Shown: piece by piece, positions 2,000 through 27,878 of the stretch | How the letters are laid out: the number at the start of each line of letters is the position of its first letter | Numbering within the stretch: the first letter of the stretch is position 1 | Source of the DNA: a virus | Virus record (IMG/VR): IMGVR_UViG_3300017987_000291 | Location: 1 to 28,134 of that record | Reading direction: 5' to 3' (one strand) | Length of the DNA: 28,134 bases | The notes under the pieces: model-generated | Told to the model about the DNA's origin: nothing | Databases searched by the model: none | What the model saw: the letters and a program-made list of their open reading frames with translations, nothing else | Program-made: the position numbers and the translations under genes

Positions 2000-2204
2000 A
2001 CTTAGCCCTCTTGCGTCCAGCGGCAGCCATCTTGGCCATCTTCTTTGCGCCGAACTTTTTCCGGCCTATGACAGCGGCCAAAGCCTTTGGGTCTTCAATC
2101 CCGTCTTCCTGTCTTCCCAAGGATCGTTGAAGCCGTTGAAAACGTTTCCCGGTTCCCAACTTGGGCAGCTTCTTTTTCTGTCCACGTCCGCCACGCTGTG
2201 CCAT
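1998..2204 (-). CDS. Small basic phage protein (IGRKKFGAKKM motif)
   Basis: This 68-residue, very Lys/Arg-rich protein starts at an ATG sharing one base with the terminase stop (TAATG), so it is probably translated by coupling. Its C-terminal half, LAAVIGRKKFGAKKMAKMAA, resembles the 'IGRKKYGxxxFxxMAAxGR' segment I know from short proteins encoded beside terminase or portal genes in many phages. Their role is not established to my knowledge. It contains no transmembrane segment. It is one of several small basic proteins in this late region. Confidence 0.75.
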   Translation of the reverse strand: MAQRGGRGQKKKLPKLGTGKRFQRLQRSLGRQEDGIEDPKALAAVIGRKKFGAKKMAKMAAAGRKRAK

Positions 2205-4972
2205 TACGCTATTACCCCCGCTCCTACCATGAAGTTCTGTTGAACTTCGATTTCGCCCGTGTCTGCCGGTTCCTGCGCGCCGTAGGCGGCAAGCATGAGA
2301 GAAACAGGGTAGTCGTCATGCGCTCCCGGTTCGTCTGGATGCTCGCACACCATGTAGTTGTTCTTGTACAACTTTCTCAAGTCCAACATCTCTCCCACGA
2401 AGCGCCTGAAGTGTCTTGACTTTCTCGCCTTCTCTCCGGCAGGGAAGGAGAGTCTACCCGACATGAGATCGGAATGCAATATCTTAAAACCATCCGACTT
2501 CGAAGCCGGGGTGAACTTCACTCCCTGCACTTCGACAAATCCCATTTCAGGCGTTCCATCCGCCCCCTTCCCGCGATCAAACTCGCTGTAGTACACGGTG
2601 AACTTGTCAAGTCCCCATTCCCCCACACCTGTTGCATCGAGAGTGATCTTCCTCAGTCCTTTGAAATTGGAGAGGAAGTTCACAATCTCGTGGAATTGGT
2701 GCTCGTAGTTGTCGCCGAGAAGCATGTGCCAAGCAACGACACGCTTGTTGTAGGCGATCCAATGGAAACTCCCTTCAGGCGTGTCAACCCATTCATCAGC
2801 GACGGGAGTTCTCCAATCCACGTCCATTACGGTAATCACACTTGGATCGTGGATTTTTCCGAAGTCAATCCCGGCGATCTGAGTTGTCACACGAGAAGAT
2901 CGGTGCCAAATCTCGTGATAGCCGCCGTGCGTCTTAGCGATTGCGGGCGTCATAAGCTGCTTGTCCGTGATGAACTGTCCACGCTCAAGCAACCATTCGC
3001 AGCAATAGCTAAGACGGAACTCATCGCTGTCTTCACCAAGGCGAACTTTTTCTTTCTTGATGTAGTCCCGATACATGGAGTTGTACTTTTGACAAACAAG
3101 ATAGTCGTATCGGTAGTGGTTCTTCGCTTCGCCTTGCGCGTACAAACGCTGATTGGACTTGATCGACGTGTAGAAATCAGACTTCTCCGTCGAACAAGTT
3201 CCGATCTTCACAATGACGCCGTTGTACGCGGCAACCATGGGATGAAGGCTGTTACCTGTTACGATTCCATTAGCAATGACAAAATGCCGTTCATCTGGAA
3301 CAGTCACGCAGTATGTGGGTTTCTTTCCGATATGTCTGACGGATTTAACACTAACAAACTGTATGTCTTCAGGATAAAACTGACTTCTACTCCGCCCTCT
3401 TTTTCCTTGAATAGTGCGGATACCCGCTTCAAGAGCGTCTTGTTTTGGCCCTAAGTTAAACTGCTTATGAAATTCACGCACATCTTCAACAGACTTTATA
3501 TGCAGTCGGTACATATAGGTGCCTAGACGTTCTTTTATTCCCGGCAAATTCCCTGTGCTTTCCACGAAACCTTCGAACTTAGCACATTGAATGCCGAAGT
3601 GTAACAAAGTTTTCCGAAGGCCGTCTACAAGATACTCTGAACAGTTGGAAAATGAAACAACAGGTTTCACAGTCGGATTTTCTATACTGCCGTCAGCTAT
3701 AATCAACCCGGAAGCAAGTCCGCGCAGAAATTCTAAGCTCCAAGGAAGATTGGGTATACGCTTGTTCTCACGCTTTGCCCCCCAAACGCCGATTTTTTTC
3801 AGCCATTCTGTCAACTTATTAGAGCCTTTCTTGTTTCCAGGCGAAGTAAGCCCACATTCAAGCATTCCACTAGATTGCTCGTTATAGACTACAGGACGCA
3901 CGCCGAATTCATGCGGACATATACGGTCAAGTAGTTTCTTTACAGAAGGCTCAACAATTATTTGCGGCTTATCGCCAGTGAAACATCCGTCACCAAGAAG
4001 CAAGCCAAGCAAGAATCCTCGATCAAAGTTCCCTAAGACACCTGCTGCATTATTCAATCGTGTAGGAACAGCCATTTGCCAGCCGGGCTGGATTTCGTAA
4101 GTCAAGGCTTCGAAAGGAACCCTCCGAGTTCTGCTGCGCACAAAATGCCGGTGATTGGCCGTAACGTCTAAGTATCTTCCTCCTGCTAATGTCACACGAT
4201 ACACGGGTTGCACACCATTATCATGGTACTCAATATCACGAGACTCAAAAAAGCCAGAAGGAGTCAACACAGGCAGTTTCTTTTTGACAACTTCTTCCAC
4301 AGGAACTTCGATTCCTCCAGAAGTAATGAAAAGCGTGCCTTCAGCAAAACACTTCCTCACCTTCAGCGTCCCGATGTCTTGCGCCTCATCAAGAATCAGG
4401 ATGTGGTACGTGTCGCCTTCGATGTGTGACTGTTCCGAAGCCGACTGAGAACGAATCCGGCTTCCATTCGAAAGACGAGTCTTGTTGGCGTTGCCGATGT
4501 CAAGGGCAACGTTCAATTCGGCGGCTACTTCCTTCGTGGTGTCCGTTTCGAGCGTGTCACGAAGGCGACTGTAAACGATGTCAGCCTGTTCCTGTTTCGG
4601 CGCGTAGATGCCGACAACGACACCGTACTTGTAGCCGCGATAGTTGCCTTGCTCGTCGGTACAGTTCAAGCGCCAATCGTCTTCGAAGATTTTCATTCTC
4701 GCAAGAAGCGGAAGAATCAAGCAGCACGCGGCGAGAATGTCCGCAATCAACTGAGACTTGCCGGACTGCCTAGCCCAAAGCGCGGTAAGCATGTCGCCGT
4801 CATGGAGAAGAACGGCTTCCACAAAACGATAGCCGAACTCCTTCTGATACTTGAAGTGCCTCTTCTGAGAAAGGATTTCGGCAAGACGGAGAATACGCAA
4901 AACAAGACTATCCAACGGCACAGTCGGTTGACTGGTTTCCCGCGTGCAGACACGCGGTGCCATGGGTTCCAT
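2204..4972 (-). CDS. terL: Terminase large subunit containing an in-frame intein
   Basis: This is the ATPase/nuclease motor that cuts and packages phage DNA. Numbering from the ATG at 4972 (922 residues), Walker A is ARQSGKS at 67-73 and Walker B is LILDEAQD at about 192-199. After a 367-residue intein (208-574) comes the coupling motif GTCSTEK. The RNase H-like nuclease has Asp in GIDFGKIHDP (703), LDATGVGEWG (779) and HDDYP (886-887). Without the intein the protein is about 555 residues, normal for this family. The frame is open upstream to a GTG at 5068, but that would overlap the preceding gene by 300 bases on the same strand. ATG 4972, 8 bases after that gene's stop, is the better choice despite a weak ribosome site. 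No small terminase subunit was recognised. Confidence 0.93.
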   Translation of the reverse strand: MEPMAPRVCTRETSQPTVPLDSLVLRILRLAEILSQKRHFKYQKEFGYRFVEAVLLHDGDMLTALWARQSGKSQLIADILAACCLILPLLARMKIFEDDWRLNCTDEQGNYRGYKYGVVVGIYAPKQEQADIVYSRLRDTLETDTTKEVAAELNVALDIGNANKTRLSNGSRIRSQSASEQSHIEGDTYHILILDEAQDIGTLKVRKCFAEGTLFITSGGIEVPVEEVVKKKLPVLTPSGFFESRDIEYHDNGVQPVYRVTLAGGRYLDVTANHRHFVRSRTRRVPFEALTYEIQPGWQMAVPTRLNNAAGVLGNFDRGFLLGLLLGDGCFTGDKPQIIVEPSVKKLLDRICPHEFGVRPVVYNEQSSGMLECGLTSPGNKKGSNKLTEWLKKIGVWGAKRENKRIPNLPWSLEFLRGLASGLIIADGSIENPTVKPVVSFSNCSEYLVDGLRKTLLHFGIQCAKFEGFVESTGNLPGIKERLGTYMYRLHIKSVEDVREFHKQFNLGPKQDALEAGIRTIQGKRGRSRSQFYPEDIQFVSVKSVRHIGKKPTYCVTVPDERHFVIANGIVTGNSLHPMVAAYNGVIVKIGTCSTEKSDFYTSIKSNQRLYAQGEAKNHYRYDYLVCQKYNSMYRDYIKKEKVRLGEDSDEFRLSYCCEWLLERGQFITDKQLMTPAIAKTHGGYHEIWHRSSRVTTQIAGIDFGKIHDPSVITVMDVDWRTPVADEWVDTPEGSFHWIAYNKRVVAWHMLLGDNYEHQFHEIVNFLSNFKGLRKITLDATGVGEWGLDKFTVYYSEFDRGKGADGTPEMGFVEVQGVKFTPASKSDGFKILHSDLMSGRLSFPAGEKARKSRHFRRFVGEMLDLRKLYKNNYMVCEHPDEPGAHDDYPVSLMLAAYGAQEPADTGEIEVQQNFMVGAGVIA
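3251..4351 (-). mobile_element. Intein with LAGLIDADG homing endonuclease inside terL
   Basis: The insert runs from Cys (CFAEGTLF) to Asn (NGIVTGN), 367 residues, with Ser as the +1 extein residue (junctions KVRK/C and N/SLHP). Seen in order are the N-terminal splicing block beginning CFAEGT, block B VTANHRHFV with the TxxH motif, two dodecapeptide motifs LLGLLLGDG and SGLIIADG of a LAGLIDADG endonuclease, and the C-terminal block YCVTVPDERHFVIANGI. The penultimate residue is Gly, not the usual His. The insert sits between Walker B and the coupling motif of the terminase ATPase, a conserved site of the kind inteins favour. Both endonuclease motifs retain their acidic residue, so it may still be active. 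Confidence 0.92.
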
Positions 4973-4980
4973 AAGACTGT

Positions 4981-5367
4981 TCACGGATTCCGCGTCTCCA
5001 GTTCCTTCTGAATGACTTTCACGTCTATCTGCATCTGTTGCTGGCGCGTGTCCATCTTTGTGTTCCACGCCTTCTGTTCTTCCATGTGCCGCTCGATTCT
5101 CTTGTACGCTTTCTCGGTGGTCTCCTTGTTGTGCTCGTTATCTTTCTGCAAGTCCTTGATGTTGCCGTGGTTTTCCCAACTCCGCTTGTTGACCGGCAAA
5201 AGGCGCTCTTCGTTTCTCTGAATGCCTTCTTTGTTCTCTTTCACATCCCGCTGCATCTGAAGAAACGTGTAGTAGAATCCGATGATCGCGGCGCATAGCG
5301 CGAGCACGAACTTAATCAATTCAAATCCATGCTTCGACGCATGTTTCTTCAGCGTTGAAGTGTTCAT
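4981..5367 (-). CDS. TM plus coiled-coil protein next to terminase
   Basis: 128 residues from the ATG at 5367, which overlaps the upstream gene's stop as ATGA. A hydrophobic segment ELIKFVLALCAAIIGFYYTF (about 15-34) is followed by a long charged helical region with heptad-like spacing (NKEGIQRNEERLL, KAYKRIERHMEEQKAW). This one-TM plus coiled-coil layout is similar to the gene at 5732-6046 and to XhlA-type holin accessory or spanin-like proteins. With neither lipobox nor lytic domain visible, function is only inferred. The position before terL is where a small terminase would be expected, but the membrane segment argues against that. Confidence 0.75.
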   Translation of the reverse strand: MNTSTLKKHASKHGFELIKFVLALCAAIIGFYYTFLQMQRDVKENKEGIQRNEERLLPVNKRSWENHGNIKDLQKDNEHNKETTEKAYKRIERHMEEQKAWNTKMDTRQQQMQIDVKVIQKELETRNP

Positions 5368-18744: not shown

Positions 18745-19449
18745 TTATCCGTGCTCAAAAGCCCTCGTCTTAAGCGTATTCCAGAGCGTTTGAAGCGCCG
18801 GGGGAAGACCCTCAGTGGTCGGCGGGTGCATGTCATGGAAGCGATTGACGAGCGCCACCACGCCTTCAAACGCCGTGGGTGAAGGCTGGATTCCAAAGAA
18901 GTCTCCGCTTGGCTCTTTCGCCTTGAAGAACGCCGGGACAAGGGCAGGGTCTTTCCAAAGCCGCTCGAAGTCGAAGATCACGAACTTGTTTGACTGAAGA
19001 AAATGATCCACCCTCCCCCGGTGGTAGTTGAACCACGCTTCGTTGCCCGATCCGGTGGGTACGCCGAAGTTCGCCTTCATCGCCGGGGCAACGCTTGTGG
19101 GATGCCGGATAACGAGCATGAAACGAGCATCGGGAAAGAGCATGTGCCACGCATCGATGTAGAGCAGCGTTCGTGGATCATAGAAGCACCAAGGCCGTTC
19201 CCTCTCCATGAGGCTCTTCCACTTGTTGATCTTCCCGTAAGGGAAGAACGTCTTTGCATCCTGTGGAGCAGGTACAGAGAGAATCCCGGTCTTGTCGCAC
19301 CCGGATACCATCTGCGCGTCTTTGTGCACTTTATCGACAATGCCCTTATCGACGTGCTCGACTCCACAGACTTCGAGAATGTCCTCAAGCAGAGTAGCGC
19401 CACTACAAGGCATCCCGAGAACGATGATGGGCGCGTTAGTGTAGCTCAT
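18745..19449 (-). CDS. Sulfotransferase-like protein
   Basis: 234 residues from ATG 19449 (ATGA overlap with the previous gene, AAGGAG upstream). APIIVLGMPCSGATLLEDIL (6-25) has the shape of the 5'-phosphosulfate loop of PAPS-dependent sulfotransferases ('PRSGTTLL'). MLVIRHPTSVAPAMKANFG (111-129) matches the 3'-phosphate-binding R-x-P-x-x-x-x-S region. VIFDFERLWKDP resembles the later 'yE-x-L-x-x-dP' step. The length is near the family minimum. Such enzymes transfer sulfate to sugars, peptides or small molecules. The acceptor here is unknown and could be a host surface polymer or a virion protein. A plain P-loop kinase is less likely given the second motif. Confidence 0.72.
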   Translation of the reverse strand: MSYTNAPIIVLGMPCSGATLLEDILEVCGVEHVDKGIVDKVHKDAQMVSGCDKTGILSVPAPQDAKTFFPYGKINKWKSLMERERPWCFYDPRTLLYIDAWHMLFPDARFMLVIRHPTSVAPAMKANFGVPTGSGNEAWFNYHRGRVDHFLQSNKFVIFDFERLWKDPALVPAFFKAKEPSGDFFGIQPSPTAFEGVVALVNRFHDMHPPTTEGLPPALQTLWNTLKTRAFEHG

Positions 19450-19679
19450 CTTGCTTTTCTCCTTTTTGGTGGTCTTCCTGGCCGTTTGTTCAACTTCTTC
19501 GCTTTCTCGACAGCCTTGAGAATGCGCTTGAACGACTTGGGACTGTGTTTTGCCAGCGCGGACCAAGCCCCCATATAGAAAACGTCCGTCATAGTCACTT
19601 TTCCCTTTTCAACAAGCCGTTTTAGCTCATCGAAAAGGCACTTCTCTACTCGAATATTGACTTGTACGGATTTTTTCAT
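19446..19679 (-). CDS. Ribbon-helix-helix-like small DNA-binding protein
   Basis: 77 residues from ATG 19679, which overlaps the stop of the preceding gene as ATGA. An upstream ATG at 19703 would add 8 residues. KSVQVNIRVEKCLFDELKRL then VEKGKVTMTDVFYMGAWSAL has the strand followed by two helices of an Arc/CopG type ribbon-helix-helix domain. The C-terminus is a basic tail (KRPGRPPKRRKAR). It probably binds DNA and may regulate phage promoters; targets are unknown. Confidence 0.65.
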   Translation of the reverse strand: MKKSVQVNIRVEKCLFDELKRLVEKGKVTMTDVFYMGAWSALAKHSPKSFKRILKAVEKAKKLNKRPGRPPKRRKAR

Positions 19680-20104
19680 TGGCTTTTTCGTTGTCTGTCC
19701 CACTCTTCACGTGCTTTGGTGCCGAGAGGGGGCGGCAAGGCTTCGTCAACCGCTTCGATTGGCTCTTTTTCCGCTGTTTTTCCTTTCTGGATGACTTTCA
19801 CGACAGGTGGCGGCGTTCGAACATCGTTTTTCACGACCACATCCGGCACTTTCACGACTTCGCGGACAACTTCACGCTCAACTTCGCGGATTTGGACAGG
19901 CGGCACGTTGTTTTGAATCTGAATCGAGCCTTCCGGGAGCGTTGCCTTGACTTCAGACGTTACTTTCACATCAGAAGGCTGATAAACCGGCTGAACAAAC
20001 TTCGGTGGAGACACAAAAAGCGTCCCGAGAACGATTGCCGCCGTGCAAATCGGCACTCCAAAGAAGATCACAAGAGGTTCCTTCCCCTCCATCTCCAATT
20101 TCAT
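19676..20104 (-). CDS. Membrane-anchored protein with a Pro/Val-rich exterior part
   Basis: 142 residues from ATG 20104 (ATGA overlap; AAAGGAG upstream). One hydrophobic segment (LVIFFGVPICTAAIVLGTLF, 11-30) is followed by a long Val/Pro/Glu-rich region (IREVEREVVREVVKVPDVVV) likely to lie outside the membrane. It ends in a basic segment. No lipobox and no catalytic motif are seen. It could be a tether or envelope-spanning protein. Confidence 0.68.
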   Translation of the reverse strand: MKLEMEGKEPLVIFFGVPICTAAIVLGTLFVSPPKFVQPVYQPSDVKVTSEVKATLPEGSIQIQNNVPPVQIREVEREVVREVVKVPDVVVKNDVRTPPPVVKVIQKGKTAEKEPIEAVDEALPPPLGTKAREEWDRQRKSQ

Positions 20105-20457
20105 GGCGTTTTCTCCTTTCTTCGTCCTGTAGGACGCATTGTTACCCCCCATCTAACAAGAAAACTTCCCACAGCTTGTCCCGACAAGCTGAAAGTCTTT
20201 CCAATTTCCCGAAGAGTCATCCCTTTCGCGTACATGCGGCGCATTCGCTTCAATCTTTCAGGATGCTGACAGTTACCTTTGTTTCTAACATTCTCTCGGA
20301 GTTCCACATTCCGTTTATGGAGATTCACACGCACGCCAGCGCACGACATTTTGAAGCGTTCGGCGAGTTTCTTGACAGTTTTTCCTTCGCCGTACAACTT
20401 AGCGATCAAATCTCCGCGCTTTTCGCACTTCGCTCTAGTGAATCTTTTCGTTTTCAT
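20101..20457 (-). CDS. Double helix-turn-helix DNA-binding protein
   Basis: 118 residues from ATG 20457, which overlaps the preceding stop as ATGA. Two similar HTH segments are visible: LIAKLYGEGKTVKKLAERFK then MSCAGVRVNLHKRN (17-50), and RLKRMRRMYAKGMTLREIGK then TFSLSGQAVGSFLVRWGV (68-105). Both have the 'GkTvkkLAerFkmS' / 'GmTLrEIGktFslS' form of resolvase- or sigma-region-4-like HTHs. The tandem arrangement suits binding of a dyad or direct-repeat operator. It is a candidate regulator for the palindromes in this window. Confidence 0.72.
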   Translation of the reverse strand: MKTKRFTRAKCEKRGDLIAKLYGEGKTVKKLAERFKMSCAGVRVNLHKRNVELRENVRNKGNCQHPERLKRMRRMYAKGMTLREIGKTFSLSGQAVGSFLVRWGVTMRPTGRRKEKTP

Positions 20458-20852
20458 TCCGGTTTCCTCAACACGATCTGACTGACGATCAGCAACGTGG
20501 ACTTCAAGACTTCTCCACCACCCCAAAGCTGAACTTCGTATGTATCAGGCCCGTCAAACTTCACTTCCACTCCGGCAGTAATCGTCGCCAAGGCTGTTCT
20601 GTCTTTTATGTGAAGCGTCAATTCAAGATTCGCTAAAATTTCTCCCGTGCTGACTTTCACAATGCGCAAACTCGTTTTACAATCACCACCCCCGCCTGAA
20701 AAAGAGATAAACACATTCTTTCTCATCACTGCGGGAAAACTGAATGCGTTGAAGTTCTTGAATATACCGATGATGCTCATCTTGCCGGTGCCTTGCTCAA
20801 GGATGGTTTGGTCACAAAGAGTGAGAATATGTACAACAGGCATCATTTCCAT
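20454..20852 (-). CDS. DUF6941-like protein
   Basis: 132 residues. MEMMPVVHILTLCDQTILEQ then GTGKMSIIGIFKNFNAFSFP matches the start of the DUF6941 family ('hillCD-x-x-x-D-x-x-tgKlsliGvFd...fPa'). A beta-rich domain with FISFSGGGGDCKTSLRIVKV and YEVQLWGGGEVLKSTLLIVS follows. Proteins of this family have no established role. A perfect 20-base palindrome lies 12 bases before the start codon, between it and the upstream gene, so expression is probably separately controlled. Confidence 0.7.
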   Translation of the reverse strand: MEMMPVVHILTLCDQTILEQGTGKMSIIGIFKNFNAFSFPAVMRKNVFISFSGGGGDCKTSLRIVKVSTGEILANLELTLHIKDRTALATITAGVEVKFDGPDTYEVQLWGGGEVLKSTLLIVSQIVLRKPE

Positions 20853-20864
20853 GGAGTTGTCTCC

Positions 20865-20884
20865 AATCCTGTATATACAGGATT
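20865..20884. promoter_or_regulatory. Perfect 20-bp palindrome AATCCTGTATATACAGGATT
   Basis: The 20-base sequence equals its own reverse complement. It lies between the stop of the gene at 20884-21264 and the start of the DUF6941-like gene. The same core CTGTATATACAG recurs at 21855-21866 over the early promoter. The short gap and the repeat suggest an operator for a phage or host repressor. The core resembles a LexA box but is 4 bases shorter. Confidence 0.6.
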
Positions 20885-21264
20885 TAGTAGTACGGTCTGC
20901 CTTCCTCGAAAGCTATGTCGTCGCCTTCCAACACATCTCCGTCTCCCAATTCTTCAAATTCGTTATCTCCGGCACTTAACTCTTTCTGAATACTTTTATC
21001 GCTGAGGTAATTCTCCAAGTGTTCCTTCACCGAATTGCGACACCATTCCTGCCCGACGAGCCAATCAAGATACTCCAGCCCTTCTTTCGTACACGCGATC
21101 ATGTCAAGAGTTTGTCCTTTGTACTTGCCAAAAGAAATCACGAAGACCTTCGCTTTTTCAAACTCCTTCTCCTTTTTCTTCTTCACTTCCTTTTCTTTCA
21201 CCGCCGTCTTTTCCGGCAAGCGTTTCTTTGTTGACTTCGAACGCTTGCTTTTTGTTTTTCCCAT
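20884..21264 (-). CDS. ExoX-C / DUF3820-like protein with a Lys-rich N-terminus
   Basis: 126 residues. VISFGKYKGQTLDMI then EGLEYLDWLVGQEW (43-74) matches the 'pFGKyKGk-x-l-x-x-v...YL-x-Wl' motif of the DUF3820/exodeoxyribonuclease X C-terminal family, often found alone in phages. The first 38 residues are almost only Lys, Glu, Arg and Ser, and the C-terminus is acidic. The start at 21264 overlaps the end of the previous gene by 107 bases in another frame, and its ribosome site (AAGGAG) is too close to the ATG. The exact start is therefore uncertain. Confidence 0.68.
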   Translation of the reverse strand: MGKTKSKRSKSTKKRLPEKTAVKEKEVKKKKEKEFEKAKVFVISFGKYKGQTLDMIACTKEGLEYLDWLVGQEWCRNSVKEHLENYLSDKSIQKELSAGDNEFEELGDGDVLEGDDIAFEEGRPYY

Positions 21265-21475
21265 TTTCCATCTCCTTCAACATCTCCACAGCGACACTTC
21301 GCATGATTCTGTCGTACAACTCAAATAGAGGGTCTTTGTACTTATTGACTTTCATAAAGTTCAGATTATGCCTCGCGTCTTTGAACATAAGAACACAACC
21401 ATTGGGAAACATCTTACTCAACTCTACGGTTACTTCTTCCAGATGCAACCTCTCTTCTTCACGCATTTTAGCCAT
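21158..21475 (-). CDS. Hypothetical helical protein
   Basis: 105 residues from ATG 21475 (MAKMREEERLHLEEVTVELS), which has AAGGA at normal spacing. The ATG at 21484 overlaps the preceding stop and sits directly on the ribosome site. The middle part (FPNGCVLMFKDARHNLNFMK) is beta-like. The last 35 residues are Lys/Glu/Gly low-complexity and share DNA with the start of the next gene. No family is recognised. Confidence 0.62.
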   Translation of the reverse strand: MAKMREEERLHLEEVTVELSKMFPNGCVLMFKDARHNLNFMKVNKYKDPLFELYDRIMRSVAVEMLKEMENGKNKKQAFEVNKETLAGKDGGERKGSEEEKGEGV

Positions 21476-21480
21476 GGTCA

Positions 21481-21777
21481 TCATTCCTTATGCCGCCAAA
21501 CGGCGTCGTCGTTCCAACTGTACGCCTCTCCGAGCTTCATATCTTGAGGAGCCACATCCAACAGTCCCTTGTAGAAATCGGTGTGGTCAAACAAATCTGT
21601 CCTATGCACGAGAATATTCTCGTACCCCACTGTGTTGAACATTAGATTCTGAGGCGCTTGTCCGATCACGTCATTCTTCCCAAGGCCCTCCAGAACAGCT
21701 TGGAGTGCGTCGGGGTCTTCCTTGGCAACGGCCTTCAGAAAGGCCCTTGTCGCCTTCCCGTCCTTCATCATAAGCAT
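21481..21777 (-). CDS. Hypothetical small protein, first gene of the minus-strand block
   Basis: 98 residues (ATRAFLKAVAKEDPDALQAV, NLMFNTVGYENILVHRTDLF). There is no membrane segment and no recognised family. AAAGGAG lies 7 bases before the ATG at 21777. It is the first gene leftward from the divergent control region, so it is probably expressed early relative to the rest of this block. Confidence 0.65.
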   Translation of the reverse strand: MLMMKDGKATRAFLKAVAKEDPDALQAVLEGLGKNDVIGQAPQNLMFNTVGYENILVHRTDLFDHTDFYKGLLDVAPQDMKLGEAYSWNDDAVWRHKE

Positions 21778-21825
21778 GTGCTAACTCCTTTCATGGCCAG
21801 GATTTACATCCTTCCAACATATTCC

Positions 21826-21853
21826 TTGACATTCCTGTGGAATCGGTCATAAT
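21826..21853 (+). promoter_or_regulatory. Putative early promoter (TTGACA-N16-CATAAT)
   Basis: TTGACA at 21826-21831 and CATAAT at 21848-21853 are 16 bases apart on the plus strand, in the divergent gap. The CTGTATATACAG palindrome begins two bases downstream and would cover the transcription start. This is the expected layout of a repressor-controlled early promoter for the plus-strand genes. Confidence 0.6.
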
Positions 21854-21870
21854 CCTGTATATACAGCGTT
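21851..21870. promoter_or_regulatory. Operator-like palindrome (18 of 20 bases shared with 20865-20884)
   Basis: AATCCTGTATATACAGCGTT differs at two positions from the perfect palindrome at 20865-20884. It overlaps the start of the putative early promoter and lies 74 bases upstream of the first minus-strand gene. It could control both directions. Confidence 0.6.
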
Positions 21871-21992
21871 TTCGAGGGAACGTCAATGGAGAAAACACGA
21901 AAAAAAATCAGGAGCCGACCTACGACTTGCGATTGGAGCGACTGAGCGATGGAGGACGCAGAAGACACAGCGGAAAGGATTCTAAATGATGA
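21871..21992 (+). other. Leader region with two tiny reading frames
   Basis: After the promoter there is no long ORF. A 19-codon frame at 21886-21945 (MEKTRKKIRSRPTTCDWSD, with GAGGG upstream) and a 15-codon frame at 21949-21996 (MEDAEDTAERILNDE) follow each other. A third frame of 56 codons (21986-22156, MMNELRQERHRIVKR) starts after AAGGA. None resembles a known family. They could be leader peptides, or the region may be the remains of a decayed gene (see 21993-22211). Confidence 0.3.
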
Positions 21993-22211
21993 ATGAACTG
22001 CGGCAAGAAAGACACCGAATAGTCAAACGAATTCCTTGCGAAGACGGAATACTCACACCATACAAACTTCAAAGGTTACCGATTAGTTTTGTGCGACTCT
22101 ATTTGAGGAGAACGTATCTTCCCATACGATCTAGCTGCCGAATACTACGGAATTAGTGAGTGGAACAAAGCCGTAGAAGCCCTAGAAAGGTTGGACGAAG
22201 ATGAATCCTAA
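21993..22211 (+). pseudogene. Remnant of a small early gene with two in-frame stops
   Basis: In the frame of ATG 21993 the translation reads MNCGKKDTE, TAG (22020), SNEFLAKTEYSHHTNFKGYR then LVLCDSI, TGA (22104), GERIFPYDLAAEYYGISEWN then KAVEALERLDEDES and TAA. The last part looks like real protein. Its end (EWNKAVEALERLD) matches the C-terminal motif of other genes here, such as WEDAVKAIERLD at 24327-24644. As in those, the end of the frame carries the ribosome site of the next gene and overlaps it (by 11 bases). No start codon exists after the TGA. I read this as a decayed paralogue; readthrough of both stops would be needed for a full product. Confidence 0.45.
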
Positions 22212-22704
22212 AGACATCAAGATAGGCGACACGCTCACTGCCGGTGTTCGCGCATTCAAGGTCTTGTTCTTTCTCCCGGATGCCGAAAACGGAATCTTCT
22301 TTGTAGCCGCTAAAGTAGGCAAGGATGCTGTTGTAGATGAGAGAGAAGTATTCCACCGCAATGGACACCATGTAGGCCAATACGATCCGAAAGACTCTTT
22401 TGAAACACTCATGGAAGCATACGCCAGGAATTACGGAGAGTACAAAGCTCTAAACATGGATTACTACAAGCCGGATAAATTCAGCGACACAATGCTTCTA
22501 TTAGAACAACTCGAAAAAGAAATGTCGAAGGAAGACACGGAAGAAGAACAGAAGAAAGAATATGACGCCACTTGGATGATACGAAGGCTCATCCTACTCC
22601 ATGACCAAAAAGAACGGGCGTTCAAAAACGGATTGTTCTACGGTTTCGCTTTGTGCATTCTCATTTTAGCTTGGCACATCTTTAAGGAGATGATGAATCG
22701 ATGA
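22201..22704 (+). CDS. Early protein with C-terminal TM segment
   Basis: 167 residues. The N-terminal part (MNPKDIKIGDTLTAGVRAFK then VLFFLPDAENGIFFVAAKVG) is a small beta domain of the type seen in the 23.7-25 kb genes ('GD-x-x...F'). A charged helical middle follows. A hydrophobic segment near the end (FYGFALCILILAWHIFKEMM) suggests a tail-anchored membrane protein. The start follows AAGG. It overlaps the next gene as ATGA. No family is known to me. Confidence 0.68.
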   Translation: MNPKDIKIGDTLTAGVRAFKVLFFLPDAENGIFFVAAKVGKDAVVDEREVFHRNGHHVGQYDPKDSFETLMEAYARNYGEYKALNMDYYKPDKFSDTMLLLEQLEKEMSKEDTEEEQKKEYDATWMIRRLILLHDQKERAFKNGLFYGFALCILILAWHIFKEMMNR

Positions 22705-23084
22705 ACATTCAACCAACACAGATAAACATCGCGCCAGATGGAGGACTCGACGCCGAACCAGATTTTTCTAAACCATCACAATACCAGTTTATGAAATACG
22801 GCACTAACAACAACATCAACGATGAACACGGTCTGAGAATTTCAGGCGAATACACTAAACGAGTGATAGAAGAAACCGTGAGAGAAGTTCTCTTACGACT
22901 TAAACCACAAATAGCAGAACTCGTTAAAGAACAAGTGATGGAAGATGCACAAATAATTAAGGAAGGTATATCCGAGAAGTTGTTTGAAAAGATGAAGAAC
23001 TACATCGAAGAATCGAGGGCGGATTGGGAAGAAGGATTACGGGCGGCTGAAAGAGTTCTGAACGGAGGGGATTCTGGTGAATAG
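22701..23084 (+). CDS. Early helical protein, paralogue of 23077-23427
   Basis: 127 residues. The C-terminal part (FEKMKNYIEESRADWEEGLR then AAERVLNG) is nearly the same as in the following gene, and both have a Lys/Glu-rich central helix. The N-terminal 45 residues (MNIQPTQINIAPDGGLDAEP) are unrelated to it. AAGGAG lies upstream and the start overlaps the previous stop as ATGA. The function is unknown. Confidence 0.7.
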   Translation: MNIQPTQINIAPDGGLDAEPDFSKPSQYQFMKYGTNNNINDEHGLRISGEYTKRVIEETVREVLLRLKPQIAELVKEQVMEDAQIIKEGISEKLFEKMKNYIEESRADWEEGLRAAERVLNGGDSGE

Positions 23085-23427
23085 TACAGATAAAGGAATA
23101 AGCGCGTGTGTACAAATCAATCCTGAGTGGAAAGAAGAGTTCAAGAGAGAAATCCTGAAGGAACTCTTGAATAGTGATCTAAAACTATACGCCGCAATCC
23201 GCACGATCCAAGAATATGTTGTAGACGACCTACAAAGAAGAATTCTTCCACTCATATTCGATAAGAGAATCGAAGAAATCGTGAATCAGTTTTCGGGCGA
23301 AATCGCTGAAGAAGCGTTCAAACGGATGAAGAAGTACATAGAGGAAACCAGAGCCGATTGGGAAGAGGGTCTTAGAGCCGCCGAAAAAATTCTACGGGAG
23401 GAGAACGAAGATGAAAAGACAGATTGA
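23077..23427 (+). CDS. Early helical protein, paralogue of 22701-23084
   Basis: 116 residues from a GTG start with GGAGG upstream, overlapping the previous gene by 8 bases. The C-terminal FKRMKKYIEETRADWEEGLR then AAEKIL repeats the end of the preceding protein. The middle (IQEYVVDDLQRRILPLIFDK) is predicted helical. The pair probably arose by tandem duplication. No domain is recognised. Confidence 0.68.
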   Translation: MNSTDKGISACVQINPEWKEEFKREILKELLNSDLKLYAAIRTIQEYVVDDLQRRILPLIFDKRIEEIVNQFSGEIAEEAFKRMKKYIEETRADWEEGLRAAEKILREENEDEKTD

Positions 23428-23671
23428 AGCCGATTGGACAACATACCTGTTGGATGTCGTTCCAAAAACTGCGGGAAAGACACAAAAAACTGCGGGAAAG
23501 ACACAAATCCAAGAAACGAAGCGAGCGTTCTTTGCTGGCGCGTTGGCACATCACGAGTTCATCTTACGCGCCGTGGAAAACAAAAAAGACGAAGAAGTGC
23601 AAAAAAAGCTCGATGGCATATTTGAAGAACTGCTAGACTTTCGACAAGCTGTTTTGGAGGGAAGGCAATGA
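23411..23671 (+). CDS. Early protein with a KTAGKTQ tandem repeat
   Basis: 86 residues with GGAGG upstream. After MKRQIEADWTTYLLDVVP come two copies of KTAGKTQ encoded by a 21-base direct repeat. The rest is helical (TKRAFFAGALAHHEFILRAV, DGIFEELLDFRQAVLEGRQ). The 'aFFaGa...f' segment occurs in several small phage proteins of unknown role. Confidence 0.68.
   Translation: MKRQIEADWTTYLLDVVPKTAGKTQKTAGKTQIQETKRAFFAGALAHHEFILRAVENKKDEEVQKKLDGIFEELLDFRQAVLEGRQ
23464..23507 (+). repeat. 21-bp tandem direct repeat (two copies)
   Basis: The unit AACTGCGGGAAAGACACAA recurs with an exact 21-base period, so the frame is kept and KTAGKTQ is duplicated. The absence of differences suggests a recent duplication. 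Confidence 0.85.
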
Positions 23672-23859
23672 GGTACAAGGACAGCACCGGACTCGACATC
23701 AAAGAAGGCGACTTGGTTCGCTTTCAGGGAAAGTTCTACACGATCAAGAGGTTCTTTCCAGGAAAGGGAAACATGAATACGGCAGCAATCGAGTTTGAAG
23801 AGAAGGAAGTCCACACCACAGAACTACCCGACGAGATGAACGTGGACTTGGCAATCTAG
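23668..23859 (+). CDS. Small beta protein (GDLVRFQGKFY type)
   Basis: 63 residues. DIKEGDLVRFQGKFYTIKRF is the pattern of small SH3-like barrel proteins ('v-x-x-GD-x-V-x-f-x-g-x-x-Y-x-I'). GGAGG lies upstream, and the start overlaps the previous stop as ATGA. It may be a small nucleic-acid or protein binding module; no specific family. Confidence 0.65.
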   Translation: MRYKDSTGLDIKEGDLVRFQGKFYTIKRFFPGKGNMNTAAIEFEEKEVHTTELPDEMNVDLAI

Positions 23860-23869
23860 GAGAAGAACG

Positions 23870-24325
23870 ATGGCAGACGCATCCTTTGCCCAATGGGCGA
23901 GAAAGAACACGCCTATCCACGTAGGAGGATTGTATCTTGTCCAACAAAAGCCTAAGTCAATCGGATGCAAGTATTACCCCGAAAACACAAAGGTAGACGT
24001 GTGGATTGCCAAGTCACAACTCCTTGCGGCTGACTACGAAGAAGAAGGGATAGCCTCAACAGGTGAATCACTGATATACGAATTAGAACACGATCCGAGC
24101 GCAGTAATGTTGGACGAGTACATTTGGGTATCCCTTAGCGCATGGTTGATTCAAAGATTCACATGGCTGGACAAAGACAAAACACCAATGGAAAAGTACA
24201 AAGGAGCATTGAGAGTCATTCCCAAAGATCGAAAAAATCCACAGAAGAAAACATCATGGGAAGACGCAATAGCTTCCCTTGATCGAATCGATAAATTGGA
24301 CAAGACGCGAAGAAAGGCGAGATGA
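23870..24325 (+). CDS. Early accessory protein
   Basis: 151 residues. The N-terminal part is mixed (MADASFAQWARKNTPIHVGG then LYLVQQKPKSIGCKYYPENT). The C-terminal WEDAIASLDRIDKLDKTRRK carries the short helix W(E/N)xA(V/I)xx(L/I)(D/E)R(L/I)D that also ends neighbouring genes. GGAG precedes the ATG. No known domain. Confidence 0.66.
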   Translation: MADASFAQWARKNTPIHVGGLYLVQQKPKSIGCKYYPENTKVDVWIAKSQLLAADYEEEGIASTGESLIYELEHDPSAVMLDEYIWVSLSAWLIQRFTWLDKDKTPMEKYKGALRVIPKDRKNPQKKTSWEDAIASLDRIDKLDKTRRKAR

Positions 24326-24326
24326 A

Positions 24327-24644
24327 ATGCCTCTCGAACTAGGCAATGTGTACAAAGCAAAGAACGGGAAAGAGTTTCATGTCTTCAAAAAAGTAAGAGC
24401 AGACATCGCCGCTAATGCTTGCGACATCTTTTTCGCGCACGAGTATGTCACCTTAAATGGCTTCAATTTCGAAATGTATACGGAAATCACATACAAGTTC
24501 AACGAAGAGGGGAAATTTTATGGTGCGTTTGTGAAGGCAACAAACAAAGGCTTTTGTGTACGACAACCTTATAAGGATTGGGATTTGATTCACCCTCCTC
24601 TTTGGGAAGACGCCGTGAAAGCCATAGAAAGGTTAGACCAATGA
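24327..24644 (+). CDS. Early accessory protein, paralogue of 24641-25006
   Basis: 105 residues from ATG 24327, one base after the preceding stop, with AAAGG upstream. MPLELGNVYKAKNGKEFHVF then KK and EITYKFNEEGKFYGAFVKAT match the same positions of the following gene (VGDIYVTNCGRVFRMVKK; QVTFRFNADGVFMDAFSTGH). The C-terminus is WEDAVKAIERLD. Its coding for AIERLD also contains the ribosome site (GAAAGG) of the next gene. Function unknown. Confidence 0.67.
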   Translation: MPLELGNVYKAKNGKEFHVFKKVRADIAANACDIFFAHEYVTLNGFNFEMYTEITYKFNEEGKFYGAFVKATNKGFCVRQPYKDWDLIHPPLWEDAVKAIERLDQ

Positions 24645-25006
24645 TGATCGTAGGTGACATCTACGTCACGAATTGTGGAAGAGTCTTCAGGATGGTCAAA
24701 AAGTCTTCAGCATGGTTTCCCTTTAAGGGACGCCACAGAAAGTATTATGTCTACGACGCATTTGAACTATACAGGAATAACACAACCGGAGTGTTTGGAC
24801 AAATAGACCAAGTTACGTTTCGATTCAACGCAGACGGAGTTTTCATGGATGCGTTTTCGACAGGCCATTCTCATCGCAGTCTTCATCAAAGCGATTCTGT
24901 TGGAGGAGGATTGGACATAGTGACTTACGAAAACGAGTGGTCACGTGTTGTGGCCGCGTTCAAAAGATTGGAGAAAGCCGATGAAGAAAAAACTAAAGCC
25001 GTTTAA
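24641..25006 (+). CDS. Early accessory protein, paralogue of 24327-24644
   Basis: 121 residues from ATG 24641 (ATGA overlap). MMIVGDIYVTNCGRVFRMVK and VTFRFNADGVFMDAF correspond to the previous gene. The C-terminus, NEWSRVVAAFKRLEKADEEK, is the divergent form of the shared helical motif. The two genes are tandem duplicates that have diverged. No family is recognised. Confidence 0.67.
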   Translation: MMIVGDIYVTNCGRVFRMVKKSSAWFPFKGRHRKYYVYDAFELYRNNTTGVFGQIDQVTFRFNADGVFMDAFSTGHSHRSLHQSDSVGGGLDIVTYENEWSRVVAAFKRLEKADEEKTKAV

Positions 25007-25229
25007 GTCCCACATGCTGTTGTTTGTCCGGGATGAAGACAAGCAAGAGGAAAACGTTTGGCTCGGAACGGAACGAATGGACATCAAAACAGCAAGAGTG
25101 AGAAGAAAACATTATCAGGAAAAGATCTTCCTTGACACGAACATCAAAGTGCGAATCCTCAAAGTGGAAATCCATCCTAAAGGCACGGTACAAAAAGGAA
25201 AGAAAGGAGAAAAAACGGATGCTTCCTGA
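24981..25229 (+). CDS. Small basic early protein
   Basis: 82 residues from ATG 24981, inside the end of the previous gene, with GGAG 8 bases upstream. It is basic with beta-type segments (SHMLLFVRDEDKQEENVWLG, KIFLDTNIKVRILKVEIHPK). A nucleic-acid-binding role is possible from the charge but not shown. Confidence 0.62.
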   Translation: MKKKLKPFKSHMLLFVRDEDKQEENVWLGTERMDIKTARVRRKHYQEKIFLDTNIKVRILKVEIHPKGTVQKGKKGEKTDAS

Positions 25230-25719
25230 AATAACCTACAGATCAGCCGTCATATCCGACGACAAAAAATATAGGTACACACTTCAACGCGCGTGGAAAA
25301 AAGGTAAAAAAGGAAGCGTGCTTTTCATTCTTCTCAACCCATCCACGGCGGATGAAGAAAAAGACGATCCCACTATTCGGAGAGGCATTGGCTTTGCCTA
25401 CAGATGGGGATATTCAAGAGTATGTTTTTGCAATCTCTTCGCGCGCCGAACCAAAGACCCTAATGTCCTGAAAAGAACAAGAAAGCCTGTCGGACGCCAT
25501 AATGACGAATGGATAATAAACAGGGCTTTGATTTCGAGCCGAATTGTGGTGGCATGGGGTGCTAATGGAGGACACCAAAACAGGGATTCAGAAGTTCTGT
25601 GCATGTTGGAGCAACACAGATACGATTTCAAGTTGTACTGTTTCGGGAAAACGATGATGGGCTACCCAAAGCACATTCTCTATCTCCCGAATGACGCGAA
25701 GTTGGTTCGGTACATGTAA
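25219..25719 (+). CDS. DUF1643 family protein
   Basis: 166 residues from ATG 25219, overlapping the previous gene by 11 bases. It has the complete DUF1643 signature: FILLNPSTADEEKDDPTIRR (36-55), FCNLFARRTKDPNVL, GRHND (92-96), RIVVAWGANGG (109-118) and a final GYPKHILYLP. The family is found in phages and bacteria. Its biochemical role is not established to my knowledge, though the conserved polar residues suggest an enzyme or nucleotide-binding protein. The match is strong. Confidence 0.88.
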   Translation: MLPEITYRSAVISDDKKYRYTLQRAWKKGKKGSVLFILLNPSTADEEKDDPTIRRGIGFAYRWGYSRVCFCNLFARRTKDPNVLKRTRKPVGRHNDEWIINRALISSRIVVAWGANGGHQNRDSEVLCMLEQHRYDFKLYCFGKTMMGYPKHILYLPNDAKLVRYM

Positions 25720-25731
25720 AGGAAAGAAGAA

Positions 25732-25935
25732 ATGAAAGCAAACGAATGGAAGATGCAGCTTTCCCGCGTGTGTGAATCTTGCGACGGAATAGGCATGAAA
25801 GGACATGTCTTGTGCCCTGTCTGCCGTGGAGACGGAAAGGAGATCATCAGCATGTCGCTAAAGGATTTTATGGAAAGAATGCTTGTAGAAGACGACAACG
25901 GGACTTTGAAAATCTCCTTCGACGAAAGGGAATAA
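25732..25935 (+). CDS. DnaJ-type zinc-finger small protein
   Basis: 67 residues. CESCDGIGMKG and CPVCRGDGKE form two CxxCxGxG units like the DnaJ cysteine-rich domain, able to bind one Zn. A short acidic helix follows (LKDFMERMLVEDDNGTLKIS). AAAGGA precedes the ATG. Single-finger proteins of this kind occur in phage early regions; partner unknown. Confidence 0.75.
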   Translation: MKANEWKMQLSRVCESCDGIGMKGHVLCPVCRGDGKEIISMSLKDFMERMLVEDDNGTLKISFDERE

Positions 25936-25938
25936 ACC

Positions 25939-26274
25939 ATGGACATGTTCACCATCATAGAGACATCCCGGTTCGTGAAGTGTCCGTACCACTTCGTGGA
26001 AACACTCATTCGGGCCAAAAAAGTGTTTCCGAGAAAGGTAAACGGAAAATGGTTCTTCACAAAAAAGCAAGTGGAGGAAATAAAAGTCCTCCACAAAACC
26101 CGGCTTGACCACGACAAACGAAGAAGAGCCGAATGCAGATTCATCGGAGCACACGTTACGGTCGAGATGAACGCCGCATTAGATAAACTGATGCGGAAAA
26201 AGAATCTGTCCAAATCGAAAATCCTTCGCACGGCGCTCAAGAACTACGTCGAAAGCCAAGGAGAGAAAATATGA
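25939..26274 (+). CDS. Regulator-like protein: excisionase-type HTH plus ribbon-helix-helix
   Basis: 111 residues. Residues 4-50 (FTIIETSRFVKCPYHFVETL then IRAKKVFPRKVNGKWFFTKK) follow the HTH_17/excisionase pattern of helix, turn, helix and wing ending in 'kvngkW-f-x-k'. Residues 70-106 (AHVTVEMNAALDKLMRKKNL then SKSKILRTALKNYVE) form a CopG/Arc-type ribbon-helix-helix. Two DNA-binding modules in one small protein suggest a transcriptional regulator or recombination directionality factor. The frame continues beyond its TGA as protein-like sequence (see 26271-26402). Confidence 0.72.
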   Translation: MDMFTIIETSRFVKCPYHFVETLIRAKKVFPRKVNGKWFFTKKQVEEIKVLHKTRLDHDKRRRAECRFIGAHVTVEMNAALDKLMRKKNLSKSKILRTALKNYVESQGEKI

Positions 26275-26402
26275 GTAAACGGCACGAAGAAGCATTGCGC
26301 TTGCTGCGTCTGCAACGAAATGGCTATGACAAAAGAAATGAAAAACGAAGACGCCGAAAGAGCGGCACACCAAGCAACGGAAAAAGGACAACGAAAAAAT
26401 GA
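26271..26402 (+). CDS. 43-residue frame, ambiguous; Cys-rich frame overlaps it
   Basis: ATG 26271 (ATGA overlap) to TGA 26400-26402 gives 43 very basic residues (MSKRHEEALRLLRLQRNGYD). However the next frame, which is the continuation of the preceding gene beyond its TGA, reads VNGTKKHCACCVCNEMAMTK then EMKNEDAERAAHQATEKGQR and KNDC to TAA 26407-26409. That has a CxCCxC cluster and an amphipathic helix and looks more like a real protein. It has no usable start of its own until an internal ATG. Either a +1 shift joins MSKRH to it, or the TGA is read through, or it is a relic. Confidence 0.4.
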   Translation: MSKRHEEALRLLRLQRNGYDKRNEKRRRRKSGTPSNGKRTTKK

Positions 26403-26650
26403 CTGCTAACGAACAGCTAGTGAAATGGGTCAATGGCGATCCTGTGCATGACAAGAAACGAGACATATGTTGTCCCGATTTCTCTTGTTGCCGTCCCGAA
26501 CTTCTCGCGCCCGAAGAAAGGAGGATCGAATTCCTGGGAGCCACCGAAGAGAAACGAAACGAAATGCTTTTCAAGTTTCTTGCCAAGGCCCTCCAAACAG
26601 GGACGGACAAGAAAGTCTACGTGACAGGAAAGGAGAACAGCGATGGATAA
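26399..26650 (+). CDS. Small phage protein (CCPDFSCCRPELLAP motif)
   Basis: 83 residues. MTANEQLVKWVNGDPVHDKK then RDICCPDFSCCRPELLAPEE contains a four-Cys cluster that I have seen in short phage and mobile-element proteins ('CCPDFSCC-x-P-x-l-l'), consistent with metal binding. A helical part follows (EEKRNEMLFKFLAKALQTGT). The start overlaps the previous stop. Its role is unknown. Confidence 0.72.
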   Translation: MTANEQLVKWVNGDPVHDKKRDICCPDFSCCRPELLAPEERRIEFLGATEEKRNEMLFKFLAKALQTGTDKKVYVTGKENSDG

Positions 26651-26957
26651 ACAAATGCCGGAAGTCGTTTGGGAAAACAATTTCTACCGGGCGATCCGCG
26701 CGAAGAACCGTGAGCTTCTGTTCGAAAGAAAAAGCAAAGACGCGATGGAGATGTTGATATGGATACCTCTCGAAGAAAAATCCCTGCGCTTGTTGGTTGC
26801 CGCGATACTCCGCGATCTCGCGAAATACAAACAAGTCGCCGACGCCGCCCGAGGAATATTCGGCGCGAAACCCGAATGGGGTGAAGCACTCGCGGAACTC
26901 GGCGCTGCATTGAAGGCACTCGATTCGGAAAGAAAGGAGGAAGGCCATGATGACTGA
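26643..26957 (+). CDS. Hypothetical early protein
   Basis: 104 residues, AAAGGAG upstream, overlapping the previous gene by 8 bases. It is largely helical (YRAIRAKNRELLFERKSKDA, LRLLVAAILRDLAKYKQVAD, WGEALAELGAALKALDSERK). No family is recognised. Confidence 0.66.
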   Translation: MDKQMPEVVWENNFYRAIRAKNRELLFERKSKDAMEMLIWIPLEEKSLRLLVAAILRDLAKYKQVADAARGIFGAKPEWGEALAELGAALKALDSERKEEGHDD

Positions 26958-27267
26958 AGACGATGGAGTCCATCCTTGTGCGGGGCATGTACATGATGAC
27001 ATTGGCATCGGTTTCCATCGCTGCTCTCGCAACGGAAGCTACCACGAAGAAGGAAAATGGTGGTGCAAATCATACGCGCCGTCTGAAGTGAAAAAGAGGG
27101 ATGACGCACGCGAGAAGGCATGGGAAAAAGAGCGAAAGGAAGACAAAGCCAAATGGAAACGACACGATGCCGCGCTTGAGTTGTGCGAAGGCGTTGAAAC
27201 GAAAACGTTGAAGAAGCTGGGCAGGGGTTGGCTCTCGAAGCACTTGAAGAGAAAGGGGAAACGATGA
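26947..27267 (+). CDS. Cys/His-rich early protein
   Basis: 106 residues with GGAGG upstream, overlapping the previous gene by 11 bases. The N-terminal half has Cys and His spaced as in a Zn-binding module (HPCAGHVHDDIGIGFHRCSR then NGSYHEEGKWWCKSYAPSEV). The second half is a charged helix (KRDDAREKAWEKERKEDKAK). A similar 'C...G-x-W-x-C-k-x-H-x-P' arrangement occurs in other phage early proteins. Confidence 0.68.
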   Translation: MMTEDDGVHPCAGHVHDDIGIGFHRCSRNGSYHEEGKWWCKSYAPSEVKKRDDAREKAWEKERKEDKAKWKRHDAALELCEGVETKTLKKLGRGWLSKHLKRKGKR

Positions 27268-27371
27268 ACATACAACGGTACGAAGTTGCCAAAGGCTATT
27301 TATTATTTAAATGCAACGGTACTTACGTGCTCTATAAAGACTATGAAGCCAAGCACGAAGCGCGGGGCTGA
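27264..27371 (+). CDS. 35-residue early protein, in frame with the downstream endonuclease
   Basis: MNIQRYEVAKGYLLFKCNGT then YVLYKDYEAKHEARG, from ATG 27264 (ATGA overlap, AAAGGGG upstream) to TGA 27369. The pattern 'Y-x-v-x-x-G-y...nG-x-Yv-x-Y-x-Dy' is common in very small phage proteins. The reading frame beyond the TGA goes on without a break into a NUMOD4/HNH protein. Confidence 0.6.
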   Translation: MNIQRYEVAKGYLLFKCNGTYVLYKDYEAKHEARG

Positions 27372-27494
27372 ACCTTCCGTCCCGGCTTCAAAGGATACGA
27401 GGTTTCAAACACAGGGAAAGTAAGAAGTTATCACTTTTCTTCTAAAACAGCAGGAAAAAAGAAACCAGTCATACTAAAGCATAAATACGACGCA
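27372..27494 (+). pseudogene. NUMOD4 module cut off from a start codon by a TGA
   Basis: In the same frame as both neighbours, the translation reads TFRPGFKGYEVSNTGKVRSY then HFSSKTAGKKKPVILKHKYD. This is the NUMOD4 motif ('W-k-p-I-p-G-f-x-gY-x-VSn-x-G-x-Vrs'). The TGA at 27369-27371 stands exactly where the conserved Trp is expected (TGG). There is no ATG or GTG between the TGA and a TTG at 27495. The original endonuclease was therefore probably truncated, or the stop is read through. Confidence 0.6.
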
Positions 27495-27878
27495 TTGGGG
27501 TACGATCAGGCGATGTTATACCCCGAGCCTCAAAAACCAATTTACAGAAAGATACACCACTTAGTTCTCGACACTTTTGTCCGGCCAAGAAGAAAAGGAG
27601 AGCAATGCAGGCATCTGGACGGCAATCCAGCAAACAACAACACCAAAAACTTGAGATGGGGGACACCTAAAGAAAACGTGGCGGACAAAAGAGGACACGG
27701 GAACATGCAGAGAGGAGAGAACCATCACCAATCAAAACTAAGCGACAAAAAGGTTCTTGAGATAAGAAGGCTTCTCAGGCAAGAATCCGCGACAAAGGGC
27801 ATGTTGGCAAAGAGATTCAAAGTCAGTTTTGACGTGATACACAAGATAGCCAAGAGAGTCACTTGGAAGCACGTCTGA
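27495..27878 (+). CDS. HNH homing endonuclease
   Basis: 127 residues from a TTG without a good ribosome site; the true frame extends upstream (27372-27494). IHHLVLDTFVRPR then CRHLDGNPANNNTKNLRWGT (20-57) is a standard HNH nuclease core, with metal-binding His at 21/22 and catalytic-type Asn in the NNNTxNLRWG segment. After ENVADKRGHGN comes a C-terminal HTH-like module (LSDKKVLEIRRLLRQESATK then LAKRFKVSFDVIHKIAKRVT) for target recognition. Such genes are selfish elements in phages. It is the last gene of the plus-strand run. Confidence 0.82.
   Translation: MGYDQAMLYPEPQKPIYRKIHHLVLDTFVRPRRKGEQCRHLDGNPANNNTKNLRWGTPKENVADKRGHGNMQRGENHHQSKLSDKKVLEIRRLLRQESATKGMLAKRFKVSFDVIHKIAKRVTWKHV

Follow-up and report, generated by a model that had tools for sequence, protein, structure and literature searches.

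The question raised by this locus is whether two copies of a palindromic sequence, lying 986 bp apart in a tailed phage genome, act as operators and, if so, which promoters and which protein they would serve. The window (i.e. the whole stretch of DNA analysed) comprises the 28,134 bases of a single IMG/VR virus record, in which the genes for portal, terminase, capsid and tail point leftward and the minus strand holds nearly all of the real-looking genes. The clear exception, and the one distinct rightward block observed in this phage, lies at ~21,986-27,878 (+) and encodes small proteins of unknown function, a DUF1643 protein, an HTH_17-RHH protein and an HNH endonuclease. A second record (G001, 75,833 bases) contains the dyad region at 100% identity, bar a 109-base gap to its left. 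A third (G002, 76,077 bases) overlaps with the left part and continues past it, bringing the phage to a length of at least 95 kb. The 109 bases absent from the otherwise identical G001 (window about 19946-20054) fall inside the ORF at 19676-20104, and their loss would shift its frame. Several further features of these records were observed in passing. The terminase large subunit ORF (2204-5068, minus strand) appears by eye to be interrupted, where the ATPase part gives way to the nuclease part, by an intein-like insert of ~350 residues (CFAEGTLF... to ...VIANGIVTGNS); QueD-, GTP cyclohydrolase-, QueF- and queuine-transferase-like proteins are encoded in the same phage (L029 637-3960 and L040 446-4442, both minus strand), together with two further proteins that are QueC-like by eye, a gene set that suggests 7-deazaguanine DNA modification. 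A 21-base unit, AAAACTGCGGGAAAGACACAA, is present in two tandem copies at 23464-23507, and a 75% repeat (22991-23059 against 23325-23393) suggests paralogous neighbouring genes.

Dyad 1, AATCCTGTATATACAGGATT, lies between two leftward genes at 20865-20884; its 20 bp form the longest perfect palindrome in the window. The earlier note had placed it before a DUF6941-like gene, and both parts of that description hold, the first gene after the dyad (20454-20852, minus strand) matching DUF6941 (PF22091, E 2.7e-11). Dyad 2, AATCCTGTATATACAGCGTT, at 21851-21870 in the divergent junction, is an 18/20 copy of dyad 1 in which the first 16 bases are identical; the two mismatches that separate it from the dyad 1 20-mer compare with seven for the third-best site in the window. 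The window contains just two exact copies of the dyad core, CTGTATATACAG, against an expectation of 0.18 matches even with up to two mismatches allowed. Across the 75.8 kb of G001 the exact core is likewise found at dyads 1 and 2 only, the sole near match (two mismatches) being one also present at window position 3494, and the overlapping G002 contig (76 kb) contains no exact dyad site. In simulations with a second-order Markov model, 13 of 400 windows contained a perfect 20-bp palindrome, and in none of these was it repeated; a window is expected to hold 4e-5 copies at two mismatches or fewer. The chance level of the pair is the product of these terms (~0.03 for the palindrome and 4e-5 for the second copy), i.e. 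of order 1e-6 before position is counted. The similarity of the two sites ends at the dyad edges, and an origin from a longer duplication was ruled out on that account. The dyad pair is a repeated palindromic site beyond chance expectation. A second perfect palindrome, of 16 bp (ACGAGAATATTCTCGT, 21608-21623), lies inside the gene at 21481-21777 and is near chance level.

No divergent relative was found, the second copy of the dyad region being 100% identical. A blastn comparison with phages gave no match, and IMG/VR scans with the DUF6941, junction, first rightward, portal and tandem-HTH proteins returned only 100% copies of the same phage and one 28-residue HTH match. The HTH-RHH protein gave two weak domain-level matches, and tblastn of this and the tandem-HTH protein against phages gave none. 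Relatives of the portal protein occur at 23-35% in Streptomyces, Bacteroides, Paenibacillus and other phages, too far for operators to be compared. As to the site itself, the core with TCC/GGA flanks is found in 20 IMG/VR stretches that share no context; AATCCTGTATATACAG is found in 45 stretches, at two separate places only in that of this phage; and the 18-base form of the dyad is found in 12 GTDB contigs of unrelated bacteria, with no prominent lineage and no shared context. We read 60 core occurrences, this phage included, in the IMG/VR and GTDB loci from the AATCCTGTATATACAG and 18-base scans: 48 lie inside an ORF of at least 80 codons, and a sigma-70 site of at least 10/12 falls on the core at dyad 2 alone. 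Elsewhere the core is nearly always single, mostly within coding sequence and without a good promoter. The site is thus peculiar to this phage, which is what a phage-specific operator would lead one to expect. A widespread operator was ruled out by the absence of shared context among the IMG/VR and GTDB stretches, and a literature search yielded nothing related for the dyad core and nothing for DUF6941.

Dyad 2 coincides with two predicted promoters of opposite direction. The first, P_R, is a sigma-70-like TTGACA-16-CATAAT element (11/12) at 21826-21853 (+) and has the top such score in the window, although the promoter consensus of the host may differ. As previously proposed, the 18/20 copy lies at this promoter, with which it shares three bases: dyad 2 begins within the P_R -10 and covers both the end of that element and the predicted start point, which, placed seven bases past the -10, falls at ~21860, the centre of the dyad. 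The second, P_L, which was absent from the earlier note, is a sigma-70-like TTGACG-17-TATATA element (9/12) at 21858-21886 on the minus strand; the core of dyad 2 provides its -10 (21863-21858), which so lies wholly inside the dyad, and its predicted start at ~21851 would put a leader of ~74 bases ahead of the gene at 21777. A -35 as good as that of P_L occurs, at 16-18 bp spacing, at 1.3-1.7% of positions, and somewhat higher scores are reached by two other leftward promoter-like sequences close to the junction (22006-21979 and 21794-21767). The -10 elements of P_R and P_L are four bases apart, such that, on the basis of the consensus matches, both would need the same melted DNA and would exclude one another; because the promoters cross, one bound protein could shut both. 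By consensus, then, dyad 2 is where opposed promoters share DNA and where one site of the pair overlaps promoter elements, while dyad 1 is without a promoter (no -35 with more than three matching bases, on either strand). The proposals that the dyads form an operator-like pair with one site over a rightward promoter, and that both directions of transcription are controlled, are supported, the latter being strengthened by the leftward promoter-like element.

Downstream of P_R, the first ORFs predicted from sequence are one of 19 codons, MEKTRKKIRSRPTTCDWSD (21886-21945, +), with a leader of ~26 nt and a plausible ribosome site, and one of 15 codons, MEDAEDTAERILNDE (21949-21996, +). Between the dyads (20884-21777, minus strand) lie three overlapping leftward genes of unknown function (21481-21777, 21158-21484 and 20884-21264). 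A putative extra half-site, ATTCCTGT (7/8; 21831-21838, +), is situated within the spacer of P_R, with the half-site in dyad 2 following 20 bp downstream, and a 10-bp rhythm of ATTCC/AATCC (21821, 21831, 21841 and 21851) was seen by eye upstream of dyad 2.

Three proteins encoded in the vicinity are candidates for binding the dyads. One, encoded at 25939-26274 (+) in the block behind P_R, combines HTH_17 and RHH_1 (CopG/ORF56-like) domains, of which the RHH_1 match (E 9e-6) is the stronger; its structure model, at a pLDDT of 49.5, was set aside. A second, at 20101-20457 (minus strand) behind dyad 1 and P_L, contains two helix-turn-helix units; its nearest relative of known structure is a CRISPR-repeat-binding (Cbp1-like) protein (2lvs, E 3e-4), a Cbp1-kind NCBIfam match (E 1e-12) falls below the family cut-off, and a Cbp1-like protein is the top Foldseek hit of a model of moderate confidence. 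The third, at 19446-19679 (minus strand) behind dyad 1, is a small basic protein, weakly RHH-like, that matches the phage repressor family phrog_876 weakly (E 0.005) and has no RHH match in Pfam. Of the two HTH-type and two RHH-type proteins that the earlier note had counted nearby, the tandem-HTH gene and the clear RHH_1 domain of 25939-26274 stand, whereas for 19446-19679 there is only the weak phrog_876 match. A sulfotransferase-like protein (Sulfotransfer_3; 18745-19449, minus strand) is also encoded in the leftward operon, behind the candidate regulators. Each of the three candidates could regulate itself and, since all are encoded downstream of P_R or P_L, negative autoregulation would be the simplest circuit.

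We therefore consider that the dyads are probably operators for one phage-encoded DNA-binding protein, an autoregulated repressor for which the proteins above are putative binders. In such a circuit host RNA polymerase would use P_R and P_L, one at a time, with P_R presumably the stronger, so that P_R would at first be open and P_L open more weakly. As repressor accumulated, a dimer would occupy dyad 2 and turn both promoters off, while the promoterless dyad 1, 986 bp further along the leftward operon, would hold a second repressor molecule that might either block polymerase before the DUF6941 and tandem-HTH genes or form a loop with dyad 2, which the spacing would allow. Negative autoregulation of this kind would limit the early burst of transcription in a virulent phage. 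If this is correct, the locus provides a defined operator with three candidate repressors for an uncultured phage in which no CI-type repressor gene can be recognised, and shows how the single opposed gene block of a mostly one-directional phage genome is controlled.

The setting of dyad 1 allows another reading, in which it acts as RNA, with stacked hairpins hiding the Shine-Dalgarno sequence of the DUF6941 gene and so tuning translation or guarding the transcript from decay, and in which dyad 2 is a separate element. Dyad 1 overlaps the stop codon of 20884-21264 and is separated by 12 bp from the start codon of 20454-20852, and this exact placement favours such a role: in the leftward mRNA (20853-20884, minus strand) the dyad 1 hairpin would be followed directly by a second, GGAG-ACAA-CUCC, over the Shine-Dalgarno sequence. 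The two-hairpin fold has a predicted energy of -14.2 kcal/mol, and only one of 200 shuffles was as stable; good folding is, however, common to any perfect palindrome. Moreover, the 16 bases common to the dyads fold at dyad 2 with -2.2 kcal/mol, no better than shuffles, such that RNA structure does not explain what the copies share, and transcripts beginning at either predicted start, both of which fall inside dyad 2, would contain only part of the hairpin. Dyad 1 may have a role as RNA, but this leaves the recurrence of the sequence unexplained, and we regard this reading as rather unlikely to account for the dyads. An intrinsic terminator was ruled out, no stem followed by a T run being found at either dyad. 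Lying in the gap ahead of the DUF6941 and tandem-HTH genes, dyad 1 may function as a roadblock or loop partner, or as a hairpin in the mRNA.

The regulator might alternatively belong to the host (LexA-like, GntR-like or other), with the phage exploiting its sites to sense the state of the cell. In keeping with this, no CI, S24 or HTH_3 repressor was found in the phage: HTH_3, Peptidase_S24, integrase and resolvase domains were absent from the two long records, in searches that were positive in known genomes, and from 93 further called proteins in Pfam and PHROG scans, at least 95 kb of phage being covered in records that may be incomplete. The CTGT and ACAG half-sites, about an AT-rich centre, also have the letters of the beta/gamma-proteobacterial LexA half-site (PMC3108266). 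However, the spacer is 4 bp in the dyads and 8 bp in the LexA box, which argues that the dyads are not LexA boxes, and the conserved palindrome reaches further outward (AATC/GATT). The sole CTGT-N8-ACAG match in the window (7696) is far off and at chance level (0.39 expected), and no LexA or S24-type protein was found in the phage contigs. The suggestion that the core is a LexA box with its spacer cut from 8 to 4 thus finds no support beyond the letters. The spacing, the distant N8 match and the restriction of the 18-base form to a dozen unrelated GTDB contigs make a host regulator an unlikely explanation.

Less likely still is that the dyads are sites of DNA breakage and joining (by a recombinase, homing or nicking enzyme) with the 986-bp interval as a cassette. 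Three genes are indeed flanked by 16-bp direct repeats, HNH endonucleases are encoded in the phage, and the tandem-HTH protein (20101-20457) also matches a resolvase HTH; against this, the 95 kb contain no integrase or resolvase domain, the arrangement is identical in both sequenced variants, and the interval genes fit the operon tightly, so that we hold this to be very improbable. An accidental palindrome with an accidental second copy is the least credible reading: although exact repeats of 16 bases are not unusual in the window and ~3% of simulated windows contain a 20-bp palindrome, the combination is of the order given above and the copy sits on the best promoter in the window.

The preferred reading, of dyads bound by a phage-encoded autoregulated repressor, concerns a site pair that is ordinary in kind and a circuit type that is well known. 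The stronger claim, that in a virulent phage a two-operator loop, bound by the tandem-HTH Cbp1-like or the HTH_17-RHH protein, shuts crossing early promoters in both directions and so represents a new operator/repressor class outside CI/Cro and LexA, appears doubtful and is in our view improbable. In lambda, the operators are triplets of 17-bp sites and the CI protein has an S24 domain. The proposed phage arrangement shares with the lambda CI/Cro system palindromic operators at opposed promoters and a second operator region at a distance, and differs from it in having single 20-bp dyads and in that no HTH_3, S24 or integrase was found. Lacking integrase and CI-like or S24 repressors, the covered sequence, in contigs that may be incomplete, does not support a lysogeny switch of the lambda type, and the records, with the same reservation, give no sign of a temperate lifestyle. 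The distant operators of lambda form a 2.3-kb loop (PMC4207663).

The autoregulated RHH repressors CopG and Sulfolobus ORF56 offer a second comparison, a related RHH domain being present in a candidate binder encoded within the controlled block; the HTH_17-RHH protein differs from them in its extra HTH_17 domain, and its binding to the dyads is putative. The nearest studied design appears, by analogy, to be the conjugation switch of the Bacillus subtilis plasmid pLS20, in which the regulator, RcoLS20, is encoded in one of the units it controls (PMC4207663). Both arrangements have overlapping divergent promoters (predicted ones in the phage) that carry one operator, the other lying further away. 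In pLS20, for which looping and the regulator are established and one of the promoters is activated, 75 bp separate the operators, which have multiple binding sites (PMC4207663), whereas the phage would employ a single dyad per operator, a spacing of 986 bp, a putative regulator and a putative loop.
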